From assembly GCF_022512515.1 (NCBI RefSeq), contig NZ_JAKWBK010000001.1, positions 3,472,001 to 3,536,000 on the forward strand: DNA of 64,000 bases, in the 5' to 3' direction. A model generated the notes under the pieces. It was not told the DNA's origin, made no database searches, and worked only from the letters and a program-made list of their open reading frames with translations. The stretch is from Paraniabella hibiscisoli (GTDB lineage: Bacteria > Bacteroidota > Bacteroidia > Chitinophagales > Chitinophagaceae). The position numbers were made by a program, and so were the translations under genes. Shown here piece by piece: positions 24,554-36,814 of the stretch (position 1 is its first letter; each line of letters opens with the position of its first letter).

Positions 24554-26938
24554 TTATTCGTTTCTTAAACTTCTTACAGGATTGGCTATGGCCGCTTTAA
24601 TGGATTGGAAGCTTACTGTAACCAATGTGAGCAACATAGCCGCAGCGCCCGCAATCAGGAATACCCATGCATTGATCTCTGTGCGATATTGATAGTTTTG
24701 AAGCCACTGTTTCATTACCAGCCAGGCTACCGGATAAGCAATTAAACAGGAGATCGCTACTAGCAATAAAAATTCTTTTGAAAGGAGTTGGGTAATACCC
24801 GTTATGCTGGCGCCGAGTACTTTACGGATGCCAATTTCTTTGGTACGTTTTTCAGCTGTGTAGGCCGAAAGTCCAAATAAACCTAAACAAGAAATAAGTA
24901 TTGCTAATACGGCAAATATTTTGGACAGGGTACTTATTAGCTGTTCATTCTGGAACATCTGGTCGAACTGCTCATCTACAAAGTGACTGCTAATAGGGTA
25001 AGAAGGTGTATGCTGTTTGATGGCAGCGGTTATTTTGGTTATAGCCTGTTCTATATCAATGCCCGGCTTTACACGCAGGTACATATTGTTAATACTGCTC
25101 ATATTGTTGCAATAAAATACCACCGGGTCAGGTTGCGCATACATATCTCCATAGATATAGTCGTTCACCACGCCAACAATAGTAAATTCACCACCTTCGG
25201 TGTCTCCCTCCCAGTACATTTTTTTGCCTACAGCACTGCCATCGCCCATCATTTTTTCTAAAGCCCGTGTAATGATAATATTAGGATTTTTGGTTTGAGC
25301 ACTGTCCGATACCACCAGGTTGTTGCCTGAAATCAGCTGCATCCCGTAGGCATCGAAGAAACCCGGGTTAATGCCACGCGTGGAAATAAGCGTTTTGTCC
25401 TTATTGAGTTTTCCTTTCCAGGTAAGACCACCTGTATTATTGCCGCCGTATAGATTATTGTAATCGCTTAGCCCTATATGTTCAACAACATGGGTATTTA
25501 AAATATCCTGCTGTATGGCCGCATAGTTCTTTCTTATTTCATCATTCATGTCAATTTGCAGCAGATTACTTTTGTTAAAGCCCAGGTTACGGCTTTTTAC
25601 GTGTTGTATCTGCTGAAAAATAATGACGGTGCTGACAATTAAAATAATTGAAATGCTGAATTGTAATACTACCAGACCTTTTCTGATAAAAGCGGCGCTG
25701 CCGGTTTTAACGTTCAGGCCTTTTAATACAGACACAGGATTGAACGACGAAAGATAGAAGGAGGGGTAGCTGCCTGCGATCAGCCCGCAAATAACAGCAA
25801 TTGTAACCATAGCAATAATATGACTGGGTTGGCTAAGGCCAAGAGTAAGGTTGGTTTGCGCCAGTGAGTTAAAGGAGGGGAGCAGCAATGACATGAAGAG
25901 GACTGCAATAATGGCTGACAGGAGGGCCATACAGAGTGTTTCAGCAATAAATTGAAAAATCAGTTTTTGCTTGCCGGCGCCTAATACTTTTCTAACACCT
26001 ACTTCCCTTGCTCTTTTTCGCTTTGGGCAGTAGAAAGGTTCATAAAGTTGATACAGGCTATAACCAATATGATCCATGCAATAATTGAGAACATGTGTAC
26101 ATACTCAATTCTTCCCCCACCTGTAAGTTTACCATTTTTAAATTCACTTTTAAGGCGCCAATCATTCATAGCCCATAGCATAGGGGAAGCTGTAGCTTCC
26201 GCTTCTCTTTTTTGATCATGTTACTAATGGACCGGTTGATAGCCTGTGCTGTTATGCCTTCTTTCAGCTCTACAAAAGTTTGTAAGCAATTGTTGCCCCA
26301 GGATTGAGCCCAGGAATGGTTAAGGTTATACCAGATGGCAAAGGGTGCTACCCAATCGAACCGAAGGGTGGATGTAGCGGGTATATTTTCGATAACACCA
26401 GAAACAACGTATTCATTTTTATTATCAACCCTGATAGATTTTCCCACTACATTTTTTGCAGTACCAAAGAACTTTTCGGCTGTTGCCTGTGTAAGCACCA
26501 AAGAATAAGTTTGTGAAAAGGCGGTTTTAGCACTGCCCTCGGTAAAGTGAAAACTAAACATGCTAAACAGCGATGGCTCAGCATAAGCGCCAAATGCAAA
26601 TATCGACTTGTCGCCAACTGCCAATAGTTGTTTGGTTCCTTTGTCGGCAATCCGGCAACTGTTAACAATACCAGGTATCTCCGACTGCATGGCGGGTCCC
26701 ATAGGCATGGGTGTTGAACTGAAGGTGGATGTTTGTGACCCGTAGGTCTGGTTGGTCATTACCTCATATAACCGGTCTTTTTTGAATGGAACTGATCGTA
26801 ACTTACTTCATGCTCCACCCAAAGAAAAATAAAACCAGCACAGGTAATACCAATAGCTAAACCAAAAATATTCAGAAAGCTATAACCTTTGTTTTTCCAA
26901 AGGGTTCTGAAAATAGTTTTTATATAATTATTGAGCAT
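24554..26938 (-). CDS. FtsX/MacB-like ABC permease 3, three frame breaks
   Basis: About 795 residues. The true start is 26938 (MLNNYIKTIFRTLWKNKGYS), recovered by adding one A near 26780 (FHSKKDRLYEVMTNQTYG). Further breaks are at ~26203 and ~26020 (STAQSEKRAREVGVRKVLGA). TM1 is FLNIFGLAIGITCAGFIFLW, then a MacB-type periplasmic domain (ATAEKFFGTAKNVVGKSIRV), the first FtsX block, mid TM (RKGLVVLQFSISIILIVSTV), second periplasmic domain (AYGMQLISGNNLVVSDSAQT) and last FtsX block (LFGLSAYTAEKRTKEIGIRK, VLGASITGITQLLSKEFLLL), ending ANPVRSLRNE. The middle member of the five-gene array. Confidence 0.9.
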
Positions 26939-26999
26939 GTATTGATTATTTGAAAATTATCGTCTTATTACTGTTATAGAGAAGCGCTAATCATCAATC

Positions 27000-29393
27000 T
27001 TATTCTGATCTAAGACTTTTGACCGGGCTGGCAGTTGCAGCTCTTATAGCATGGAAACTAATTGTTGACAGTGTGATAAGGATCATACCCAGAACAGCTG
27101 CGGCGAAAACCCACCAGGATATTGCTACTCGGTAATTATATTTCTCCAGCCATTCATGGAGATAGTAATAGGCGACGGGTATAGCTATAACACTGGCGAT
27201 GCTTACCAGTATTATAAATTCAGCCGAAAGTAAAGTCCATAAATTAAATACAGATGCGCCTACTATTTTTCGTATTCCCAGTTCCTTGGTACGTTGTTCT
27301 GCTACAAACGATGCTAAGCCGAATAAACCTAAGCAGCTAATGAAAATAGCCAGCAAAGTAAAGAAGCCCGCCAGGTTGCCAATGCGTTCTTCATTGGAGA
27401 ACTTTTTGGCATATTCTGTATCCGCAAACTCATAGGCAAATGGTGCTGCGGGGATCAGTTTCTTAAAAACTTTTTCTATAATCGCCAGGGATGCTGACGT
27501 GCTTTTTTCCGGATTTAGTTTCAGGTTAATGACGTTTACGTTATTATTCGTTAAAAGATATACCGCCTGCTTCACCGGTTCGTATGGAGACGTCATTACC
27601 ATATCTTTTACCACACCTACAATGGTAAACGCGCCGGCTTCCGGGCCATCTCCCCATCGTACTACTTTGCCTATAGGGTCTTTTACACCCATAAATTTTA
27701 CAGCCGCTTCGTTCAGGATTACGGAACTACTGTCTCCTTTAAATTCCGGGGAAAAGTCGCGTCCCTCTTTAATAGTAAAGCCAACTGTTTTCCCATATTC
27801 GGCGGTTATCCAAATGGTGGCAAAGTCACTATCAGTATTAGGGTCTTTACCCTCCCAGTTAAAACCGCTGTTATTACTCCATACACCGGTAACGGGGCTT
27901 GACGATTCAGACATTTCTTCAATGGCCTGTTGTTTTTTTAGCTCTGTACGCAGGATATCGTATTTGCCGTAAAAGTCCGGCGTCTGCATCATGATCGATA
28001 CCAGGTTATTCCGGTCATAACCAACAGGCCTGTTTTTACTATGTTGTATTTGCTTGTATACAATGATAGTGCAGATCATTAAACAAACAGAAACTGCAAA
28101 TTGCATTACCACTAAAACCTTCCGGGGCAGGGTAGCCAACCGCCCGGCTTTAAAAGTGCCTTTTAATACTTTGATAGGCCTGAACGAGGATAAATATAAT
28201 GCAGGGTAACTTCCGGCTAATAAACCGGTAACAATAGTAAAGCCGAGGCCGATCAACCAAAACCAGCCATTGCTCCATAAAATATGTATTTGTTTGTCGG
28301 CTACTTTGTTAAACCAGGGCAGGGACACCATGGTGAGCAATATGGAAAATACAAAAGCAATAAGTGCTACCATTACCGATTCGCAGAGCAGTTGTCCCAC
28401 TAATTGGCTACGATGTGACCCAACTGTTTTCCTGATCCCAACTTCTTTTGCTCTTTTTCGGAACGGGCAGTGCTTAGGTTCATGAAATTGATGCAGGCTA
28501 GTAGTAATACAAATGCACCAATGATAGCGAACATCCAAACATATTCTATTTGTCCGCCAGACTGTACTCCCTCTTTGTAAGATGATCGCAGATGCCAGTC
28601 TTTCATTGGATGGAGAAAGATCCGGGATTTAAACCTTTTGTTTCTTTCTGCTACCTTGTTATATCGTACTTTCTGAATTTTGGCGCTTACCGATGCGAAA
28701 TCGGTATGGTCATTTATTTGCACAAAGCATTGAAATGAATTGTTGCTCCATTGTGTAGCCGCCTCTGCTAACCATCCTTCGGATGTTTTATACAGGTCCC
28801 AGGGAGCGATGAATTTTAAATCCCTGAACGTGGTGCTGTGGGGAGGTCTTTAAATACGCCGGTAACTTTAACATCCAGTTTGTTGTCGATCTTCATCGAT
28901 TGATTGATGGGGTCCGCATCTCCAAAAAAGCTTTGGCCGTGCTTTCAGAAATGAGAATACTATTGGGGTTACTCAAACTCTTCCTGGAGCCTTTCAACAT
29001 ATCGAGCGATAAAATGTAGGGTCCATCTTTATCGATGTAAATACCGTTCTTGTTTAAATAATTATTGTTAGTGCTCAGCATGTGATCGCCTTGCCAGGAG
29101 GCCATCGCTATATACTTGAAATTATTTCCATAGAGGGTTTTTAGTTCGTTTCCCAGGGGGAATGGAACGGCAGGCCAGGTTTCTGTATTGCCATTCTTGC
29201 TCTCGTATTGCTGTATCTGCGCCACCCGGTCATAGTTGGTATGGTAATGGTCAAAATTAAGTTCGTCCCATATCCACAAGCCAATGAGTGTCGTAACAGC
29301 CATGCCTATGCTTAAACCGCCGATATTGATAAAAGAGGCTATTTTATGTTTTAATAAATTCCTCCAGGCTATTGTGAGATAGTTTTTAAGCAT
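27000..29393 (-). CDS. FtsX/MacB-like ABC permease 2, three frame breaks
   Basis: About 798 residues when mended at ~28922 (T run), ~28838 (C run) and ~28455 (A run). Begins MLKNYLTIAWRNLLKHKIAS, TM1 (INIGGLSIGMAVTTLIGLWI), periplasmic domain (STAKAFFGDADPINQSMKID, VFKDLPHSTTFRDLKFI), first FtsX block (ACINFMNLSTARSEKRAKEV, GIRKTVGSHRSQLVGQLLCE), mid TM (RKVLVVMQFAVSVCLMICTI), second periplasmic domain (ITAEYGKTVGFTIKEGRDFS) and final FtsX block (LFGLASFVAEQRTKELGIRK, IVGASVFNLWTLLSAEFIIL), ending ASPVKSLRSE. 55 bases after the permease 1 stop. Confidence 0.9.
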
Positions 29394-29448: not shown

Positions 29449-31842
29449 TTATTCAGTTTTCAAACTCTTTACAGGATTGGACATAGCTGCTTTTACTGCC
29501 TGTGTGCCAATGGTGATTAACACAATAATAGCAATGGTGAAAACAGTTCCTGTCACCATCATCCAGTTCAGGTGAATACGATAAGCAAATGTTTGCAGCC
29601 ATTTGGAAGCAGCCAGCCAGCTAAGGGGGATTGCTACCAGCAGCGCCACGATGATCAGTTGCAGGAATAGCTTACCCACCAAAACAAGCACATCACCTAT
29701 GCCGGCTCCCAACACCTTCCTGATACCGATTTCCTTGGTTCGTTCTTTTATGATATAGGCAGTAAGTGCAAACAGTCCCATTGCTGAAATAAGTATGGCA
29801 ACCAGGGCGAAGAAGCTGATGGTTTTTTGAATAGTAAAATAGGTTTTAAATATCCGTTGAAAATTCTCATCCAAAAAGGTATAGCGGATAGGTGTGTCTG
29901 GCTCAATTTGCTTCCACCTCTCTTCTATATTGCTGATTGTTTGCGATAGGTCGCCACCCGACAGCTTTATTAAAAGCGCTCCGCCAGACAGGTACCCGCA
30001 TGCCTTATTATTGATGGAGTATGCGATTGGTCTTACTGCGTTTGCCATATCCTGCACATTAATGTCTTTTGTAATACCTACTATTTGCGCTTTAACCGAA
30101 TCGCAGTAGGGCATGCCTACAAAAGAGCCAACTACTTTCTGATTGCCCCACAAACTGGCTGCCGTTTCGTTTAAGATAAGGCTGCGCGTATTTTGATCGG
30201 CATAACTGTCATTAAATCCCCTGCCCTTTAATACGGGCGTTCCAACCGTTTTAAAATAGTCGGCGCTTACCTTAACAGTGGTCATTTTTATAGTCTGGCC
30301 GTTAAACGAATAGTCGTTTAATATAGTGTCTACATCGGCATCGCCCGGAACCAGTGTTGTTTTAGATACCAGCTCTATACCAGGAACGGATAAGAGTGTC
30401 GCCCGGGCTTTATCGAATCCGTCATCGCGGGTGCCTTGCTGAGCTTCAATTCGCATGATCTGAGCGCTGGAAAAGCCTTTATCCTTTGTTTGCATATAGT
30501 GAACCTGTGAACTAATGACTATAACAGAGAAAACAAAAAAGGCAGAAAGTGCAAATTGCAAAACCAATAATAAGTTGCGGAGTTTTAATCCCGACTTGCC
30601 CTGCGAGTAGTTACCTTTTAATATTTTAGAAGTGTTGAAGCGGGAAAGAAAAACGGAAGGATAGAGGCCCGATAATAAAATAACCGTTACAATACATAAA
30701 GTGATCTGCGCAATAAAAACCAAGGTGCCACCACTGAGAATGGAAAACTGAATGCTGAACTCCTGTTTGAACCAAGGCATTAATAGTACCACCAGCATTC
30801 CTGCAATGCATAAGCTCAATGAACAGGATAAAATAGCTTCTCCCATAAACTGCCAGAACAATTGTTGCCTGCGGCCTCCTAACACCTTTCTTACACCTAC
30901 TTCTTTTGCCCTTTTAATAGATGTGGCAATAGATAGATTGCTAAAGTTTACAGCTCCTGCAACCAGCAACAGGAAGGCTAAGATTAGCAGCACCACTATA
31001 GTTTTGAAATTACTGCCTCCGCTTTTGGGGAAGTTGTGGAGCGCCGATAGCTTTTCTGAAAATAGAATTGTTTTATTTTCTTTTTGCAGGTATTGCTGAT
31101 AGGTTAGGTTATTAGCTTTCTGCTGGTCATTGTAGTAAATAGTATTGATCGCAGTTTCCAAATCGCCGGGTGTAACTGCATTTTTTACTTTTATAAATGT
31201 CTGATAAGAAAAGTTCTGCCAGTGACTATTTGATTTTTCATAAGGAGAGCGAAATAATATCTGCATATTTAATGCAGAAGGTTGGTCAGGCGATTGCATG
31301 ATGCCCGACACTACGACTTCAATCCTCCCGTAGAGTTTAATGGTTTTGCCGATAGGGTCGTCCTGGCCAAAAAGTTTGTTCCTCACAGTTTCAGTAATTA
31401 CTGCTGCATTCGGTGCATTTAATGCGGTATGTATATTACCAGAAGAAAGTTGATAGGGAAAGACTTTAAAGAATAATGAATCTACTTCTGTGATACCTTT
31501 TTGGTATATTTTTTTATCGTTTGCCGCTACCAGTATCTCATAATCGCCCGCGCCACTCATACGCGTTGCGGCTTCGGCATTACTGTATTTTCCGGCTATT
31601 AAGCGACCCAGAGGCTCAGGAGTTGCCCCATTCCAGGCTATACCATCTTTATCTTCAATTCCAAGCTTATAGATCTTTGTCAGTTCCGGGTTCCATTTAT
31701 CATAGCTTAGTTCATAGTTCAAAAACAGAAGCACTAAAATAAAGCTGGCAAGACCAATACCCAGTCCGATGATATTGATGGCGCTATACCATTTATTGAT
31801 CCGCAGATTTCTCCAGGCAATTTTTAAGTAACTTTTAAACAT
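29449..31842 (-). CDS. FtsX/MacB-like ABC permease 1, intact
   Basis: The only one of the five permeases that reads without a break, 797 residues, and so the best model for the others. MFKSYLKIAWRNLRINKWYS, TM1 at ~20-42 (INIIGLGIGLASFILVLLFL), MacB-type periplasmic domain to ~280 (VRNKLFGQDDPIGKTIKLYG), first FtsX block at ~285-400 (GAVNFSNLSIATSIKRAKEV, GVRKVLGGRRQQLFWQFMGE), mid TM ~427-447 (LLLVLQFALSAFFVFSVIVI), second periplasmic domain (KTVGTPVLKGRGFNDSYADQ), and last FtsX block from ~680 (MGLFALTAYIIKERTKEIGI, RKVLGAGIGDVLVLVGKLFL), ending SNPVKSLKTE. It starts 39 bases after the first ATPase. Confidence 0.93.
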   Translation of the reverse strand: MFKSYLKIAWRNLRINKWYSAINIIGLGIGLASFILVLLFLNYELSYDKWNPELTKIYKLGIEDKDGIAWNGATPEPLGRLIAGKYSNAEAATRMSGAGDYEILVAANDKKIYQKGITEVDSLFFKVFPYQLSSGNIHTALNAPNAAVITETVRNKLFGQDDPIGKTIKLYGRIEVVVSGIMQSPDQPSALNMQILFRSPYEKSNSHWQNFSYQTFIKVKNAVTPGDLETAINTIYYNDQQKANNLTYQQYLQKENKTILFSEKLSALHNFPKSGGSNFKTIVVLLILAFLLLVAGAVNFSNLSIATSIKRAKEVGVRKVLGGRRQQLFWQFMGEAILSCSLSLCIAGMLVVLLMPWFKQEFSIQFSILSGGTLVFIAQITLCIVTVILLSGLYPSVFLSRFNTSKILKGNYSQGKSGLKLRNLLLVLQFALSAFFVFSVIVISSQVHYMQTKDKGFSSAQIMRIEAQQGTRDDGFDKARATLLSVPGIELVSKTTLVPGDADVDTILNDYSFNGQTIKMTTVKVSADYFKTVGTPVLKGRGFNDSYADQNTRSLILNETAASLWGNQKVVGSFVGMPYCDSVKAQIVGITKDINVQDMANAVRPIAYSINNKACGYLSGGALLIKLSGGDLSQTISNIEERWKQIEPDTPIRYTFLDENFQRIFKTYFTIQKTISFFALVAILISAMGLFALTAYIIKERTKEIGIRKVLGAGIGDVLVLVGKLFLQLIIVALLVAIPLSWLAASKWLQTFAYRIHLNWMMVTGTVFTIAIIVLITIGTQAVKAAMSNPVKSLKTE

Positions 31843-31880: not shown

Positions 31881-32558
31881 TTAAACTAATATATTCTCTG
31901 TAACTGTCTGGCCATCCAGCATACGTATAATACGATGACTATAGCGGGCATCATGCTCGCTATGGGTTACCATAATGATGGTAGTGCCTTGTTCATTGAG
32001 GTCGGTCAGCATTTCCATTACTTCGTTACCGTTAGAGGAATCGAGATTACCGGTAGGCTCATCGGCCAGGATCAGCTTGGGCTTGTTTACAACAGCGCGG
32101 GCAACAGCTACTCTTTGTTGCTGTCCGCCCGAAAGCTGTTGGGGGTAATGGTTGCGACGATGCATGATCTGTACCTTTTCAAGTACTTCTTCCACCCGTT
32201 TTTTACGATCGGCGCTTTTAACACCGGTATATATCAGCGGGAGCTCTACATTCTCAAAAACAGTTAGTTCATCAATCAGGTTAAAGCTTTGGAAAACGAA
32301 ACCAATATTATGCTTTCTTAAGTCTGCTCTTTTGCGTTCATTGAAATGCGCCACTTCAATACCATTGAAAACGAAGCTGCCGCCATCCGGATCGTCCAGT
32401 AACCCCAGTATATTTAACAGGGTAGATTTACCACAGCCGGAGGGACCCATCACAGCAACAAATTCTCCTTCTTTTACTTCGAGCGATAATTTGTTGAGCG
32501 CAATAGTTTCTACTTCTTCAGTCCGGTACATTTTTTCCAGATCGGTAATTTTTATCAT
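31881..32558 (-). CDS. MacB/LolD-type ABC ATP-binding protein (first of the operon)
   Basis: Intact, 225 residues. MIKITDLEKMYRTEEVETIA, Walker A GPSGCGKST, Q-loop NIGFVFQSFNLIDELTVFEN, signature LSGGQQQRVAVARAVVNKPK, Walker B LILADEPTGNLDS and the switch His in TIIMVTHSEHDARYSHRIIR. This is the classic MacB/LolD class of ATPase that pairs with FtsX-type permeases. It is followed by permease 1 and preceded, 49 bases away, by the HlyD-type adaptor. It differs enough from the second ATPase (18981-19642) for each to serve different permeases, or for a heteromeric pair. Confidence 0.93.
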   Translation of the reverse strand: MIKITDLEKMYRTEEVETIALNKLSLEVKEGEFVAVMGPSGCGKSTLLNILGLLDDPDGGSFVFNGIEVAHFNERKRADLRKHNIGFVFQSFNLIDELTVFENVELPLIYTGVKSADRKKRVEEVLEKVQIMHRRNHYPQQLSGGQQQRVAVARAVVNKPKLILADEPTGNLDSSNGNEVMEMLTDLNEQGTTIIMVTHSEHDARYSHRIIRMLDGQTVTENILV

Positions 32559-32606: not shown

Positions 32607-33860
32607 TTATTGTTTGATCACCAACTCCTGCATATCTTCTCCATAATTCTCATAGCTGCTGGTTACTATTTTATCACCGGGTTTTAGCCCGCTGATCACT
32701 TCGAAGTAATCAGGGTTTTGACGCCCCAGTTCAATATCTGTTTTATAAGCAACAGACCCGTCTTTACTGAGTTTGTACACCCATCTGCCACCGGTTTTGT
32801 TATAAAAACCTCCTCTTGCCAATAATAAAGCCTTGGTTTCATCGCTTAAAGCCAAACGTATCTGCAGGGTCTGGCCGCGCCTGATGCCTTCCGGCGCTTT
32901 GCTCTCAAAAGCCATATCCACCGAAAATTTCCCATTGGCTACCTGTGTATATACTTTTTTAATGGTCAGTGTATAGTCTTTACCGCCAATACTTGCTATG
33001 CCCTCAAGTCCGTTATAGATACGGTTAATATAATGCTCATCTACATCTACCCGAACCTTATAGTCTCCCATTACATCCAGCTGCCCTAATCTTTCACCTT
33101 TGTTTTTGTTTTGCCCAGGTTCTGCGTCAAGAGAAGTGAGTTGCCCGTCAACCGGCGCACGTACTATCAAATCTCCCACTTTTTGACGCATTACCGATAA
33201 GGCATTTTGTGAACCAGTGTACGATTGTTGGGCCTGTACCAGCTGTTGTTTAGAAGATTGAGCGTCCTGGTTAATGGTTTCAGTGGCCAGGTTTTTTTAG
33301 CTTGCTGGTAGTTATAAGCGTTTTCACTTTGTTTCAGCTCCTGCAAACCAATAGCCTTTTTATCATATAGTTTTTTGTTAAGTGTATACACCCGGTCAGC
33401 TTCTTTCAGTTCGTTATCTACATCAGTCATCTGGTTGAGGTTAGTAATGCGGTTTTGCTGGGAGGCATTTTTAGCGATCTGCATTTGCGTGATCAGGTTG
33501 TATACCTGTGTTTCCTGTTGCACCAGGCTCAGCTGAAGATCCGTATTCGACAATCTCAGGATCGGTTGTCCTTTTTCATGATGGCCCCGTCTTCTACAAA
33601 CTTTTCTTCCACACGACCGCCTTCCGCAGCGTCAAGGTAAATAGAAGTGAGTGGCTGCACCACGCCGTTAACCGGTATAAACTCCTGGAAATTTCCCTGC
33701 TTTACTTCACTGATCGTGATTCTTTCAGCGGCTACATTCAGTTTGGTATTGCCTGTTGTAGCGTAAATGCTGGCTGCAATCAATACTACGAGGCCGGCAA
33801 TACCGGCGATAAGCATGATTCTTTTCTTAGACCATTTTTTTGTTCAATCTTCCTGTCCAA
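32607..33860 (-). CDS. HlyD/MacA-type periplasmic adaptor, three frame breaks
   Basis: About 418 residues; membrane-fusion subunit joining ABC permeases to TolC. The start is taken as TTG at 33860 (LDRKIEQKKWSKKRIMLIAG) because the family opens with MDRxIE(K)KKW; it needs one A added to the run of seven at ~33837. A single TM follows (MLIAGIAGLVVLIAASIYAT), then FQEFIPVNGVVQPLTSIYLD, a coiled-coil hairpin (VQQETQVYNLITQMQIAKNA, KKLYDKKAIGLQELKQSENA), lipoyl part (VGDLIVRAPVDGQLTSLDAE) and barrel (GQTLQIRLALSDETKALLLA), ending YENYGEDMQELVIKQ. Other breaks: ~33573 and ~33294, both A runs. First gene of the export operon. ATG at 33932 in the same frame would be almost on the predicted transcript start, so is less likely. 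Confidence 0.88.
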
Positions 33861-33946
33861 CCCTATTAGTTTTAATTGATATGATTCTTTTAGTACTGTT
33901 CTAAAAAGCTGCCGGATTTTTTGATCAGTCATCCGGCACTGATGCC

Positions 33947-33962
33947 TTGTAATACCGTGCCA
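33947..33962 (-). promoter_or_regulatory. Candidate sigma-54 (-24/-12) promoter of the export operon
   Basis: On the minus strand the sequence TGGCACGGTATTACAA carries a perfect -24 half (TGGCACG) and a poorer -12 half (TTAC for TTGC, one base closer than usual). It lies 86 bases before the adaptor start and faces it. The divergent gene pair codes for a sigma-54 activator and its kinase, which makes the match more credible than by itself. Confidence 0.45.
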
Positions 33963-34022
33963 TAATCGCAATTTATTTGTTTTCAATGTTCTATGTGATT
34001 TGCATGACATGTGTTTTGTGCG

Positions 34023-34047
34023 AAACCGGACACTGAGTGTACGGTTT
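34023..34047. promoter_or_regulatory. 25-bp palindrome, candidate activator binding site
   Basis: Inverted repeat with arms AAACCG and CGGTTT outside and ACACT and AGTGT inside, around a central G; the only mispaired positions are one base in each arm. It is 60-100 bases upstream of the -24 box of the export operon, the usual place for an enhancer bound by an NtrC-type activator, and about 80 bases before the activator's own start. Confidence 0.5.
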
Positions 34048-34128
34048 TGATACAGTTTTTTTAATTGTCACCCGGCAGGCTATAAAAATGTATATCAGGT
34101 GATCAAATGTGGTATTATTGCATTGCAA

Positions 34129-35479
34129 ATGTCCCTAAAAAATATATCCATATTAGCTGTAGACGATGACGCAGATATGCTGACGGCATTGCGCTTATTG
34201 CTGAAGGCAGAAGTGAGGCAGATCACTACCGAAAAGAACCCGGAAAATATACGCACGCATTTACTGGAACAAAAGTACGATCTGTTACTGCTGGATATGA
34301 ATTTTACGAGCGCGCTGCATACAGGTAATGAAGGGCTTTACTGGCTACGGAAGGCTAAATCGTTAGACCCCGGCATACAGGTAGTAATGATCACCGCCTA
34401 CGGGGATATTGACCTGGCCGTAAGGAGCTTAAAGGATGGGGCAGCAGATTTTATTGTAAAACCCTGGCATAATGAAAAAATGCTGGAGACCATTAAGGAA
34501 ATAGTTGCGCAAAAAATAAATCAGCAAGAGCCGCTAATAGTACGCTGTTGCAGCCGGATGTTTCTTTTATTGCTGAGTCTCCGGCTATGCAGGATATTTT
34601 GTATAAGATCAGGAAAATTGCTCCTACGGAAGCCAATATCTTAATACTGGGAGAAAACGGAACAGGTAAAGACCTGGTAGCCCACCTGGTTCATCAGCAG
34701 TCGTTGCGCCACAATGGTCCGTTTGTAAAAACAGATGTAGGCGCTTTAACAGCCAGTCTTTTTGAAAGCGAGTTATTTGGTTATAAACGGGGCGCTTTTA
34801 CCGATGCAAGGGAAGACAGGGCAGGGCGTTTTGAAATGGCTTCGGGAGGTTCGCTTTTTTAGATGAGATCGGGAATATTGCCTTGCCGCAACAGGCTAAA
34901 TTATTGACAGTGCTACAAAACAGGGTAGTAAACCGGTTAGGCAGTAACGAAGCGTTGCCTGTCAATATACGGTTAATATGCGCTACCAACCTGCCTTTGC
35001 ACGAGCTGGCTAATGAACATCGTTTTCGGCGCGACCTGGTGTACAGAATCAACACCGTTGAGATCACAATACCGCCATTGCGCGACAGGCAGGAAGATAT
35101 TTTACCCCTTGCGCAACACTTTATTAAACTGTATAGCGAGAAATACCTCAAACCTTCTTTGTCCATTAGCAGGCAGGCCATTGAAAAGCTAAAGCTATAC
35201 CATTATCCAGGCAATATCAGAGAGCTGCAGTACGCAATTGAGAGGGCTGTGATCATGTGTGAAGGGAAAACACTGGATGCCGATGACGTGGTTTTTTCGC
35301 CTATAGAAAAACACCAGGCCCAGGTGCAGGAGCAGGGTCAAACGAACCTGGAAACCCTTGAGAAAAATACCATCATCAGGGTTGTTGAAAAACATAACGG
35401 GAATATTACCAAAGCTGCGAAGGAGCTGGGTCTTACACGCACAGCTCTATACCGGCGTTTAAGTAAGTACGATATTTAG
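34129..35479 (+). CDS. Sigma-54-dependent response regulator (NtrC family)
   Basis: About 450 residues. Start MSLKNISILAVDDDADMLTA. Receiver domain 1-120: acidic DDD pocket, phospho-Asp in LLLLDMNF, MITAYGD and VKPWH. AAA+ domain ~140-380: Walker A GENGTGKDL, sigma-54 contact loop YKRGAFTDAREDRAGRFEMA (GAFTDA where the consensus is GAFTGA), Walker B LFLDEIGNI, then VNRLGSNEALPVNIRLICAT and VYRINTVEITIPPLRDRQED. Fis-type HTH at the end: NITKAAKELGLTRTALYRRL. Breaks are at ~34533 and ~34855 (T run; restores SLFLDEIGN). It is divergent from the export operon and 4 bases before a kinase gene, so most likely activates that operon. Confidence 0.92.
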
Positions 35480-35483
35480 CACT

Positions 35484-36814
35484 ATGGCAATCCATCGAAA
35501 ATACAGGTTCAGGTATGCACTACGACTGGTATTACTTTTTCTTTCATTGTTGGTTACCGCCTGGTTTTTCCTGAAAGCTGAGTATATTTTATCCGTATTG
35601 GTCTTTTTACTGGCAGTGGTGCAAGCCTGGCTGCTTTATAAGCTGGTGGTATTGCCTTTTACTGAATTAGAAGATTTTGCATCAGCTGCCAGGTACCGCG
35701 ACTTTTCGCGCCATTTTAATATCGATAAAGCTCCTGTGGAGCTACAGGCATTAAGAAACGATTTTAACCAGATCAATCAGACCTTTAAAACAATTACCAA
35801 AGAGAAAGAAGCCCAGTATCAATACCTTCAGAAAATACTGGAGTTAATACAAACCGGTATTTTGCTGTACGATACAGAAACCGGTAAGGTGAGTTGGGTG
35901 AACGAGTCGCTTAAAAAAATGCTGGAGCTTCCGTATATCCCCAACCTGCAGCTGATAGAAAAGAAGAATGCAATAGTTTATAATGCAGTACTTCAGCTGG
36001 AACCGGGCCAGAGCAGTGTGCTTTTACTGGATGCCGACCAGCAGAAGTTAATGCTTTCTGCAGCAGCTTTCTTTACAGAAGGTAAAAACTACAAGCTGGT
36101 AGCATTACAGAATATTAATGAAGCGCTTGATGAGAACGAAGCCAGGTCCTGGCAGAAGTTGCTGAGTGTTATGACCCACGAGATCATGAATTCTGTAGCA
36201 CCCATCGCTTCGCTGGCAGCTACATTAAAACAGCAGCTACAGTCAGGCGGCAATAATTTGAGTTCTATTAAGGAGGATGTAGAACTGGGCATTGAGACCA
36301 TACAGCGTAGGAGTGAGGGCCTGATGCAGTTTGCGGCTACTTATCGTACCTTGAATAAAATTACCAGCTCGCGTAAACAATCGTTTCTTGTTGGAGAGTT
36401 GTTTGAAAATGTGTTGCAATTGCTAAGTCCTAAACTGGATCAGCGAATTATTAATACCGATATTATTCTGAAAGATCCTTTAATGAAGCTGAGTGCCGAC
36501 CGGCATTTGATAGAGCAGGTATTGATCAACCTGGTGCTCAATGCCATTGATGCTTTAAAAGATACCCGGGATCCAAGGTTGATACTTTCGGGTTATTTGA
36601 ACAATGATGGCCGGATCATTATAACAGTTACCGACAATGGTGCGGGGATGCCGGCAGATGTAATGGAAAAGATTTTCATTCCTTTTTTAGCACCAAAGCA
36701 AGCGGGAGTGGTATTGGTTTAAGCCTTTGCAAACAGATCATGTTGCTGCACAAAGGCAACATCTACGCAAAATCAGTACCTGGCTCGGGAACGGTTTTCT
36801 ATTTGCAGTTTTAA
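35484..36814 (+). CDS. NtrB-like sensor histidine kinase
   Basis: About 443 residues. Two N-terminal TM segments (LRLVLLFLSLLVTAWFFL and YILSVLVFLLAVVQAWLLY) with almost no periplasmic loop, so it probably senses within the membrane or in the cytoplasm. HAMP-like stretch (LPFTELEDFASAARYRDF), PAS domain ~120-205 (LIQTGILLYDTETGKVSWVN), phospho-acceptor His in SVMTHEIMNSVAPIASLA, N box INLVLNAIDAL and G boxes VTDNGAGMP and GSGIGLSL. One lost T near 36682 hides the last ~40 residues (FFSTKASGSGIGLSLCKQIM, ending GTVFYLQF at 36814). The stop overlaps the end of the convergent GtrA-like gene by 4 bases. Partner of the regulator just before it. Confidence 0.9.

Follow-up and report, generated by a model that had tools for sequence, protein, structure and literature searches.

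What switches on the MacB/FtsX-type exporter genes that stand back to back with the gene of an NtrC-family response regulator, and is the DNA between them a target of that regulator? The window, by which we mean the whole 64-kb stretch analysed (positions 3472001-3536000 of contig 1 in a 6.1 Mb genome), holds the HlyD adaptor, ABC ATPase and MacB_PCD/FtsX permease genes of a tripartite exporter together, with the regulator and a sensor histidine kinase on the other strand (Table 1). The first-pass annotation had read the space between adaptor and regulator as a sigma-54 promoter facing the adaptor gene and activated in the NtrC manner from a 25-bp palindrome. This idea is largely right as regards the enhancer region, the -24 element toward the adaptor, the NtrC-type regulator and RpoN, whose gene is present in the source genome, but the parts are arranged differently. 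We conclude that the region is very probably a NifA/NtrC-type enhancer with a sigma-54-like promoter, serving a MacB/FtsX-type exporter operon.

Table 1. Features of the window around the exporter-regulator intergenic region (window coordinates).
Feature	Position	Strand	Remarks
MacB/FtsX permease	29449..31842	-	PF12704, PF02687
ABC transporter ATPase	31881..32558	-	PF00005
HlyD-type periplasmic adaptor gene	32607..33860	-	start TTG at 33860 by homology; frame interrupted; PF13437
Degenerate -12 element TTAC	33949..33952	-	one base closer to GG than canonical
-24 element TGGCAC	33957..33962	-	+92 from unit 1, +70 from unit 2
IHF-like stretch AACAAATAAATTG	33969..33981	-	7/9 by eye to WATCAAN4TTR; weak in window
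A/T-rich block, family pattern about TAA-N5-TTG; window TAGAACATTGAAAACAAA	33976..33993	-	conserved columns +61/+62, +68/+69 of unit
Candidate activator-binding unit 2, TGTCCGGTTTCGCACA (TGT-N10-ACA)	34017..34032	-	starts 22 bp after unit 1; TGT at +22 in 50/69 loci
Palindrome AAACCGGACACTGAGTGTACGGTTT	34023..34047		junction of units 1 and 2; exact core in 22/69 orthologous regions
Candidate activator-binding unit 1, TGTATCAAAACCGTACA (TGT-N11-ACA)	34038..34054	-	at least 12/15 in 69/74 loci; exact TGTATC[A/G]AAAnCGnACA in 62/69
GGTATTATTGC, candidate housekeeping-type box of regulator gene, related to TATGGTAT-N2-TTGC	34111..34121	+	GGTAT-N1-2-TTGC in 16/79
NtrC-family response regulator, GAFTDA	34129..35479	+	frame interrupted; PF00072, PF00158, PF02954 on its pieces
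Sensor histidine kinase	35484..36722	+	PF02518; adjoins regulator in orthologs too

The adaptor (33191-33860) and the regulator are each split over several frames and are whole in the relative G016; the splits have the appearance of decay, or of assembly error at the level of single bases. More open frames for MacB/FtsX permeases, recognised by Pfam, lie past the exporter genes on their strand (24554-29393); together with the exporter genes they perhaps form one long operon.

Three sets of relatives were compiled. The regulator's receiver had one match each in 13 of 17 same-genus genomes, the source genome included; of the 147 family genomes, 71 have a match to it. From the family matches 78 loci were fetched, a selection that omits five lower or second matches and one (G045) that sits at a contig edge, and with the window they make up an ortholog set of 79. 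In 74 of these the adaptor gene lies upstream of the regulator on the opposite strand, usually followed by the ATPase and permease, and the kinase follows the regulator. RpoN is encoded in all 147 family genomes searched, so its co-occurrence gives no contrast. The second set comprises the best 80 of at least 578 named relatives of the regulator: many Chitinophagaceae, the family to which the window itself probably belongs, and also Mucilaginibacter, Pontibacter, Rufibacter, Cesiribacter and others, some records possibly being the same genomes as in the family set. We assume that these genera can be grouped as Sphingobacteriaceae-type or Cytophagales-type. The third set was drawn from a sample of 395 genomes of the phylum in numbered families (f1, f3, f24, f30 etc.), of which 103 hold the regulator group. 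Its 69 promoter loci consist of 29 and of 40 from the next ranks of the match list; for the 40, about a dozen ranks, mostly second matches of a genome, were passed over, and lower ranks lie outside the set. L380 was scored on a TGGCAC other than the in-register one and L393 on the other strand.

The palindrome reads AAACCGGACACT-G-AGTGTACGGTTT and is indeed present, 61-85 bp upstream of the TGG as had been claimed, with 11 of 12 arm positions complementary around a gap of 1. With arms of 12, at least 11 matches and a gap of 0-6 as criteria, 3 such palindromes exist in the window and 0, 3, 2, 0, 1 and 3 in six shuffles. Its exact core, CGnACA-N5-TGTnCG, is not enriched in the whole genome (2 places versus 6 for the reversed control pattern), and the second place, at C1:358270, falls inside a 212-aa open frame. 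The -24/-12 match of the window agrees at 10 of 14 consensus positions, a score of at least 10 that is found at 168 places on both strands of the 64 kb, 140 of them equal and 28 higher. Each of the two is thus unremarkable alone, and their significance comes from conservation.

Counting dyads on the exporter strand led to TGTATCAAAA followed by nCGnACA; the strongest dyads, those of the TGTATCAAAA block, occur in 51 of 74 upstream regions, and no dyad exceeded 9 in one shuffled set. In 69 of the 74 loci the corresponding unit, at 12 or more of 15 positions, is no more than 600 bp away from the adaptor start. None was found within that distance in the other five (L061, L116, L126, L127 and L128), which counts against the enhancer-promoter reading; L061, L127 and L128 carry a unit-TGGCAY composite elsewhere in the locus, and L116 a unit on the other strand. 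Unit 1 is the sole site without mismatch to TGTATCAAAANCGNACA in its own genome, and besides this unit at 34054-34038 the window has no exact one. At up to two mismatches the own genome has 31 sites, versus 16 for the reversed pattern. In 29 near-match loci (L135-L163), read on the plus strand, no TGGCAY-N5-T was found 40-139 bp on.

In many loci the TGT found 22 bp after the start of unit 1 marks the start of a second unit. Unit 2 of the window agrees with the NifA-type UAS pattern TGT-N10-ACA, unit 1 being one of TGT-N11-ACA, and the palindrome spans the inner halves of the units at 34054-34038 and 34032-34017. Going by these comparisons, the conserved element is probably a tandem pair of NifA-like units 22 bp apart, of which the palindrome is the junction. 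The first-pass annotation had also named conservation in orthologous loci as a check on the palindrome, and here the outcome is divided: the exact core is kept only in a minority of the orthologous regions (22 of 69), and the units persist. A conserved activator region does lie at an NtrC/NifA-like distance, but the bound element is probably the TGT-N10/11-ACA pair and the palindrome its varying junction. An alternative is that the dimer recognises the palindrome as such and that the outer TGT/ACA parts carry no significance; the near-perfect form of the palindrome in the window and those 22 exact cores would agree with it. We consider this highly improbable, because unit 1 is kept in loci that have lost the palindrome (exact in 62 of 69), and because the inverted repeat in f24, f30 and f54 is the unit, a TGT-N10-ACA palindrome (e.g. 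TGTTCGATATCGAACA, TGTCCGAATTCGGACA and TGTGCGCTACCGCACA), and not the junction. The 25-bp palindrome was rejected as the binding unit on these grounds.

The TGGCACG claimed as a -24-like element is found on the minus strand, facing the adaptor, as ATGGCACGGTATTACAA starting at 33963, with its GG present. It is well conserved: TGGCAY follows the unit in 66 of the 69 family loci that have one, the exceptions being L060, L078 and L089. The promoter tallies omit L089 and L060 and place L122 at +68, which gives 67 stretches, 66 with TGGCAY (shuffled mean 2.0, maximum 6). TGGCAY occurs 71 times at 40-200 bp from the unit in the 69 loci; in 67 cases the distance is +68-70 or +89-93, and in 70 cases position 12 is T. 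On the same strand the control word RTGCCA gave 5 scattered occurrences in all.

The -12 element had been called weaker, and it is poor, but in this family it is more than weak. The window has no GC at the canonical distance, ten bases after GG, and none one base closer either. In the family the degenerate -12 half fits best one base nearer to GG than usual: T stands at position 12 in 67 of 67 promoters and TT at 11-12 in 51, and the GC is mostly missing (GG-N10-GC in 1 of 67, GG-N9-GC in 13), which argues against a sigma-54 reading. Strict sites are scarce as well. A search of five genomes for TGGCAC-N3-6-TTGCW returned 120 matches (N3 38, N4 28, N5 13, N6 41); by an ORF test 3 of 28 with N4 and 2 of the 13 with N5 were intergenic, as were 3 of 12 tried among the 38 with N3 and 1 of 6 among the 41 with N6. 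These numbers are too small to reveal a usual spacing for the family; the scarcity of TGGCAC-N5-TTGCW weakens the best explanation. As a separate observation, L245 and L278 have TGGCAT boxes upstream of a kdp-like operon, in the space that separates a kdpA-like gene from the gene of another EBP; these candidate boxes of a Kdp-linked EBP occur in the own and one related genome, in loci not all of which were oriented.

Does the arrangement recur outside the family? The exact unit was found in 23 of 395 phylum genomes at 39 places, and its reversed control at 4. Among 29 new loci, TGGCAY-N5-T follows at 68-71, 79 or 90-92 in 17. Sixteen of these composites stand before genes of exporter type: 11 before adaptors recognised by eye, and 4 before permeases and 1 before an ATPase assigned by Pfam. 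Four of the 16 are sites already counted, and the remaining composite, L253, precedes a protein without Pfam match. Four of the 12 loci without composite precede permease or ATPase genes (L250, L251, L254 and L268); some of the others may be chance matches. Among the named relatives the composite is present in 54 of 80 loci: 38 of 47 of Chitinophagaceae and others, 14 of 19 of Sphingobacteriaceae type, 1 of 13 of Cytophagales type and the single one of Flavobacteriaceae. Of the 69 loci in the phylum set, 50 show a TGT-N10/11-ACA unit at 60-96 bp upstream of a TGGCAY. The lack of the composite in 26 of the 80 named loci, and of such a unit-TGGCAY pair in 19 of the 69 phylum loci, argues against the enhancer-promoter reading. 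The Cytophagales-type orthologs keep TGGCAY and have changed half-sites (GTGCGA...TCGCAC). In eleven loci of this type (L344, L350, L353, L360, L361, L370, L374, L380, L384, L386 and L387) the altered half-sites, about GTGCGA/TCGCAC, stand in the same register before TGGCAY, which is, as far as sequence comparison can tell, a natural case of activator-site turnover.

Spacing is strict. Counting two-unit promoters twice, 124 unit-TGGCAY pairs at the set distances occur in 79 loci, versus 0 in reversed sequence. Within the searched range of 60 to 96, the unit-to-TGG distances take the values 60, 67-71, 77-81 and 88-92 only. Their phase R is 0.84, inflated by the double contribution of two-unit promoters, versus a maximum of 0.40 in 10,000 uniform draws.

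The phylum set also bears on the -12 element. GG-N10-G is present in all loci of f24 (21/21) and f30 (4/4) and in the single loci of f42, f54 and f11. These 28 of 28 compare with 3 of 67 in the window's family (Fisher p 5e-21), a value that is only a guide, since the set was chosen after seeing the rows, and these are related to one another, several f24 promoters even being identical. The same spacing is found in 11 of 12 named Cytophagales-type loci, and GG-N10-GC in 3 of 4 loci of f30, the single f54 locus and 4 of the 12 named Cytophagales-type loci. Such canonical -24/-12 spacing in orthologs of other Bacteroidota families supports sigma-54. Elsewhere GG-N10-G occurs in 2 of 3 loci of f8, 1 of 7 of f3, 0 of 5 of f5, 0 of 2 of f9 and 1 of 5 of f1, this last being a mispicked row; the scarcity in f3, f5 and f9 argues against sigma-54.

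The regulator has receiver, Sigma54_activat and Fis-type HTH (HTH_8) domains, as an NtrC/NifA-type EBP does. Its loop differs from GAFTGA: the 79 orthologs have GAFTDA (75), GAYTDA (2), GAFTGA (1) or GSFTGA (1), and of the 80 in the named set 77 have GAFTDA or GAYTDA and 3 have GSFTGA. The HTH sequence T-R-T-A-L-Y-R-R is invariant in all 79 aligned regulators except at its third position, T in 78. The D in the loop speaks against sigma-54, as does a study in which no sigma-54 was pulled down by Dickeya VfmH, a GAFTDA protein (PMC10714721); another source considers EBPs of Desulfovibrio with GAFTDA or GAYTDA to be capable of activation (PMC4641369). In our sets canonical promoters go with GAFTDA (f24, 6 of 7, one unread) and GSFTDA (f30), and in 2 of 5 cases in f5 GAFTGA goes with a non-canonical promoter, so the D neither excludes sigma-54 nor explains the -12 element.

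The missing -12 GC and the GAFTDA loop are also what might be expected if a housekeeping-type sigma factor read the promoter, TGGCAY being another protein's site and the regulator an ordinary activator or repressor whose loop makes no sigma-54 contact. We regard this as very unlikely. Families f24 and f30 combine the same layout and a GAFTDA or GSFTDA loop with canonical -24/-12 spacing. The distance from TGG to the start codon is at least 28 nt in all 67 loci, and in L106, where it is 28 nt, little room is left for a separate core promoter. Finally, a TAnnTTTG promoter, which the first-pass annotation had set against its own, shows no enrichment on the exporter side (3 of 69 versus a shuffled mean of 5.7), and at the level of sequence the proposed promoter withstood this check. 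Within the sigma-54 reading that we prefer, we tentatively suggest, as an idea that may well prove wrong, that in the window's family and some neighbours the promoter has shifted to a degenerate -12 element one base closer (TGGCAY-N4-TT), orthologs elsewhere keeping GG-N10-G. Activation would then depend on a GAFTDA activator and on an enhancer of two units in rigid helical phase, and promoter opening by sigma-54 would in this way tolerate a -12 element thought indispensable.

Does the region also serve the regulator gene? Unit 1 lies 75 bp from the regulator start, and a bound activator could affect a divergent promoter. Self-regulation through a sigma-54 promoter on that side, as envisaged earlier, is not borne out, TGGCAY-N5-T occurring there in 4 of 79 loci (shuffled mean 1.3, maximum 4). 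The strict register moreover holds toward the exporter, and in 16 of 79 loci the regulator has a conserved box of another kind before it. We therefore think it unlikely that the region also drives or modulates the regulator gene. The box, as TATGGTAT-N2-TTGC, is present in 12 of 79 loci, the window not among them, versus 0 in shuffles, which suggests that it is the regulator's own housekeeping promoter in these 12 orthologs. In the looser form GGTAT-N1-2-TTGC it is found in the window and 15 of 78 orthologs (shuffled mean 0.12, maximum 2) and possibly has the same role. TAnnTTTG is present on the regulator side in 14 of 79, at the upper edge of the shuffles (mean about 8, maximum 14). Eight same-genus relatives (L059 and L061-L067) have a further composite 65-66 bp upstream of the regulator, with 91-bp spacing and facing as the exporter does.

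Between the units and the promoter lies a conserved A/T-rich block. Over the family, sequences resembling WATCAAN4TTR, taken by us to be the IHF consensus, score at least 8 of 9 in 17 of 67 stretches (shuffled mean 3.7, maximum 9), with a mean best score of 7.0 versus at most 6.8 in shuffles. This match is statistical, and weak in the window, which tells against the best explanation as a whole. The elements present in the sequence, how well they are conserved, their strict spacing and phasing and the regulator's domain make-up lead us to infer the following course of events. Upon an inducing signal the kinase would phosphorylate the adjacent NtrC-family regulator, whose binding sites would be the tandem pair of TGT-N10/11-ACA units, both on the same face of the helix and separated by two turns. 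Bending of the A/T-rich block, perhaps by an IHF/HU protein, would bring the activator to RNA polymerase with sigma-54 sitting at TGGCAY, and ATP hydrolysis would open the promoter so that transcription starts toward the adaptor gene. Help by IHF at sigma-54 promoters is described in parts of two sources (PMC7057263, PMC6296734).

Among the titles that the literature searches listed, none was seen of an experimental study of this promoter. Within the literature searched, the activator site, its phasing, the linked group of GAFTDA regulators and the lineage change in the -12 element seem to be new. They give a concrete, testable activator site and promoter for the exporter-regulator group in those 103 phylum genomes, bacteria in which, according to the abstract of a 2025 computational survey, sigma-54 control is less explored (PMC12316311). 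The orthologs moreover form a natural series in which the -12 element changes and the activator sites keep their helical face, and could show how essential the -24/-12 and GAFTGA rules are.

Compared with known systems, the region most resembles NifA-activated nif promoters, which, in the parts of the sources concerned with them, have TGT-N10-ACA about 100 bp upstream of the start, a -24 element and help by IHF (PMC2820453, PMC6296734). Unlike those, it has two units 22 bp apart, the first one base longer, at fixed helical spacing across genera, as well as a two-component EBP with GAFTDA and, in the window's family, a degenerate -12 element. In Pseudomonas CbrB promoters (TGTTAC/GTAACA), too, a sigma-54 promoter assisted by IHF has several subsites in both orientations upstream of it, as one of these sources describes in part (PMC6296734); they differ in half-site sequence and regulon, and are likened here by layout. 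The survey cited above predicts sigma-54 control of FtsX-like ABC exporters in Bacteroidia, the same class of target gene as here, and presents this link as its first evidence; its passages use TGGCACN5-7TTGCT and name no activator site or regulator (PMC12316311). The G-to-D change in the GAFTGA loop is shared, going by passages on each, with Desulfovibrio DVU2106 and Dickeya VfmH (PMC4641369, PMC10714721), but unlike in those two proteins, GAFTDA is here the rule of an orthologous group.
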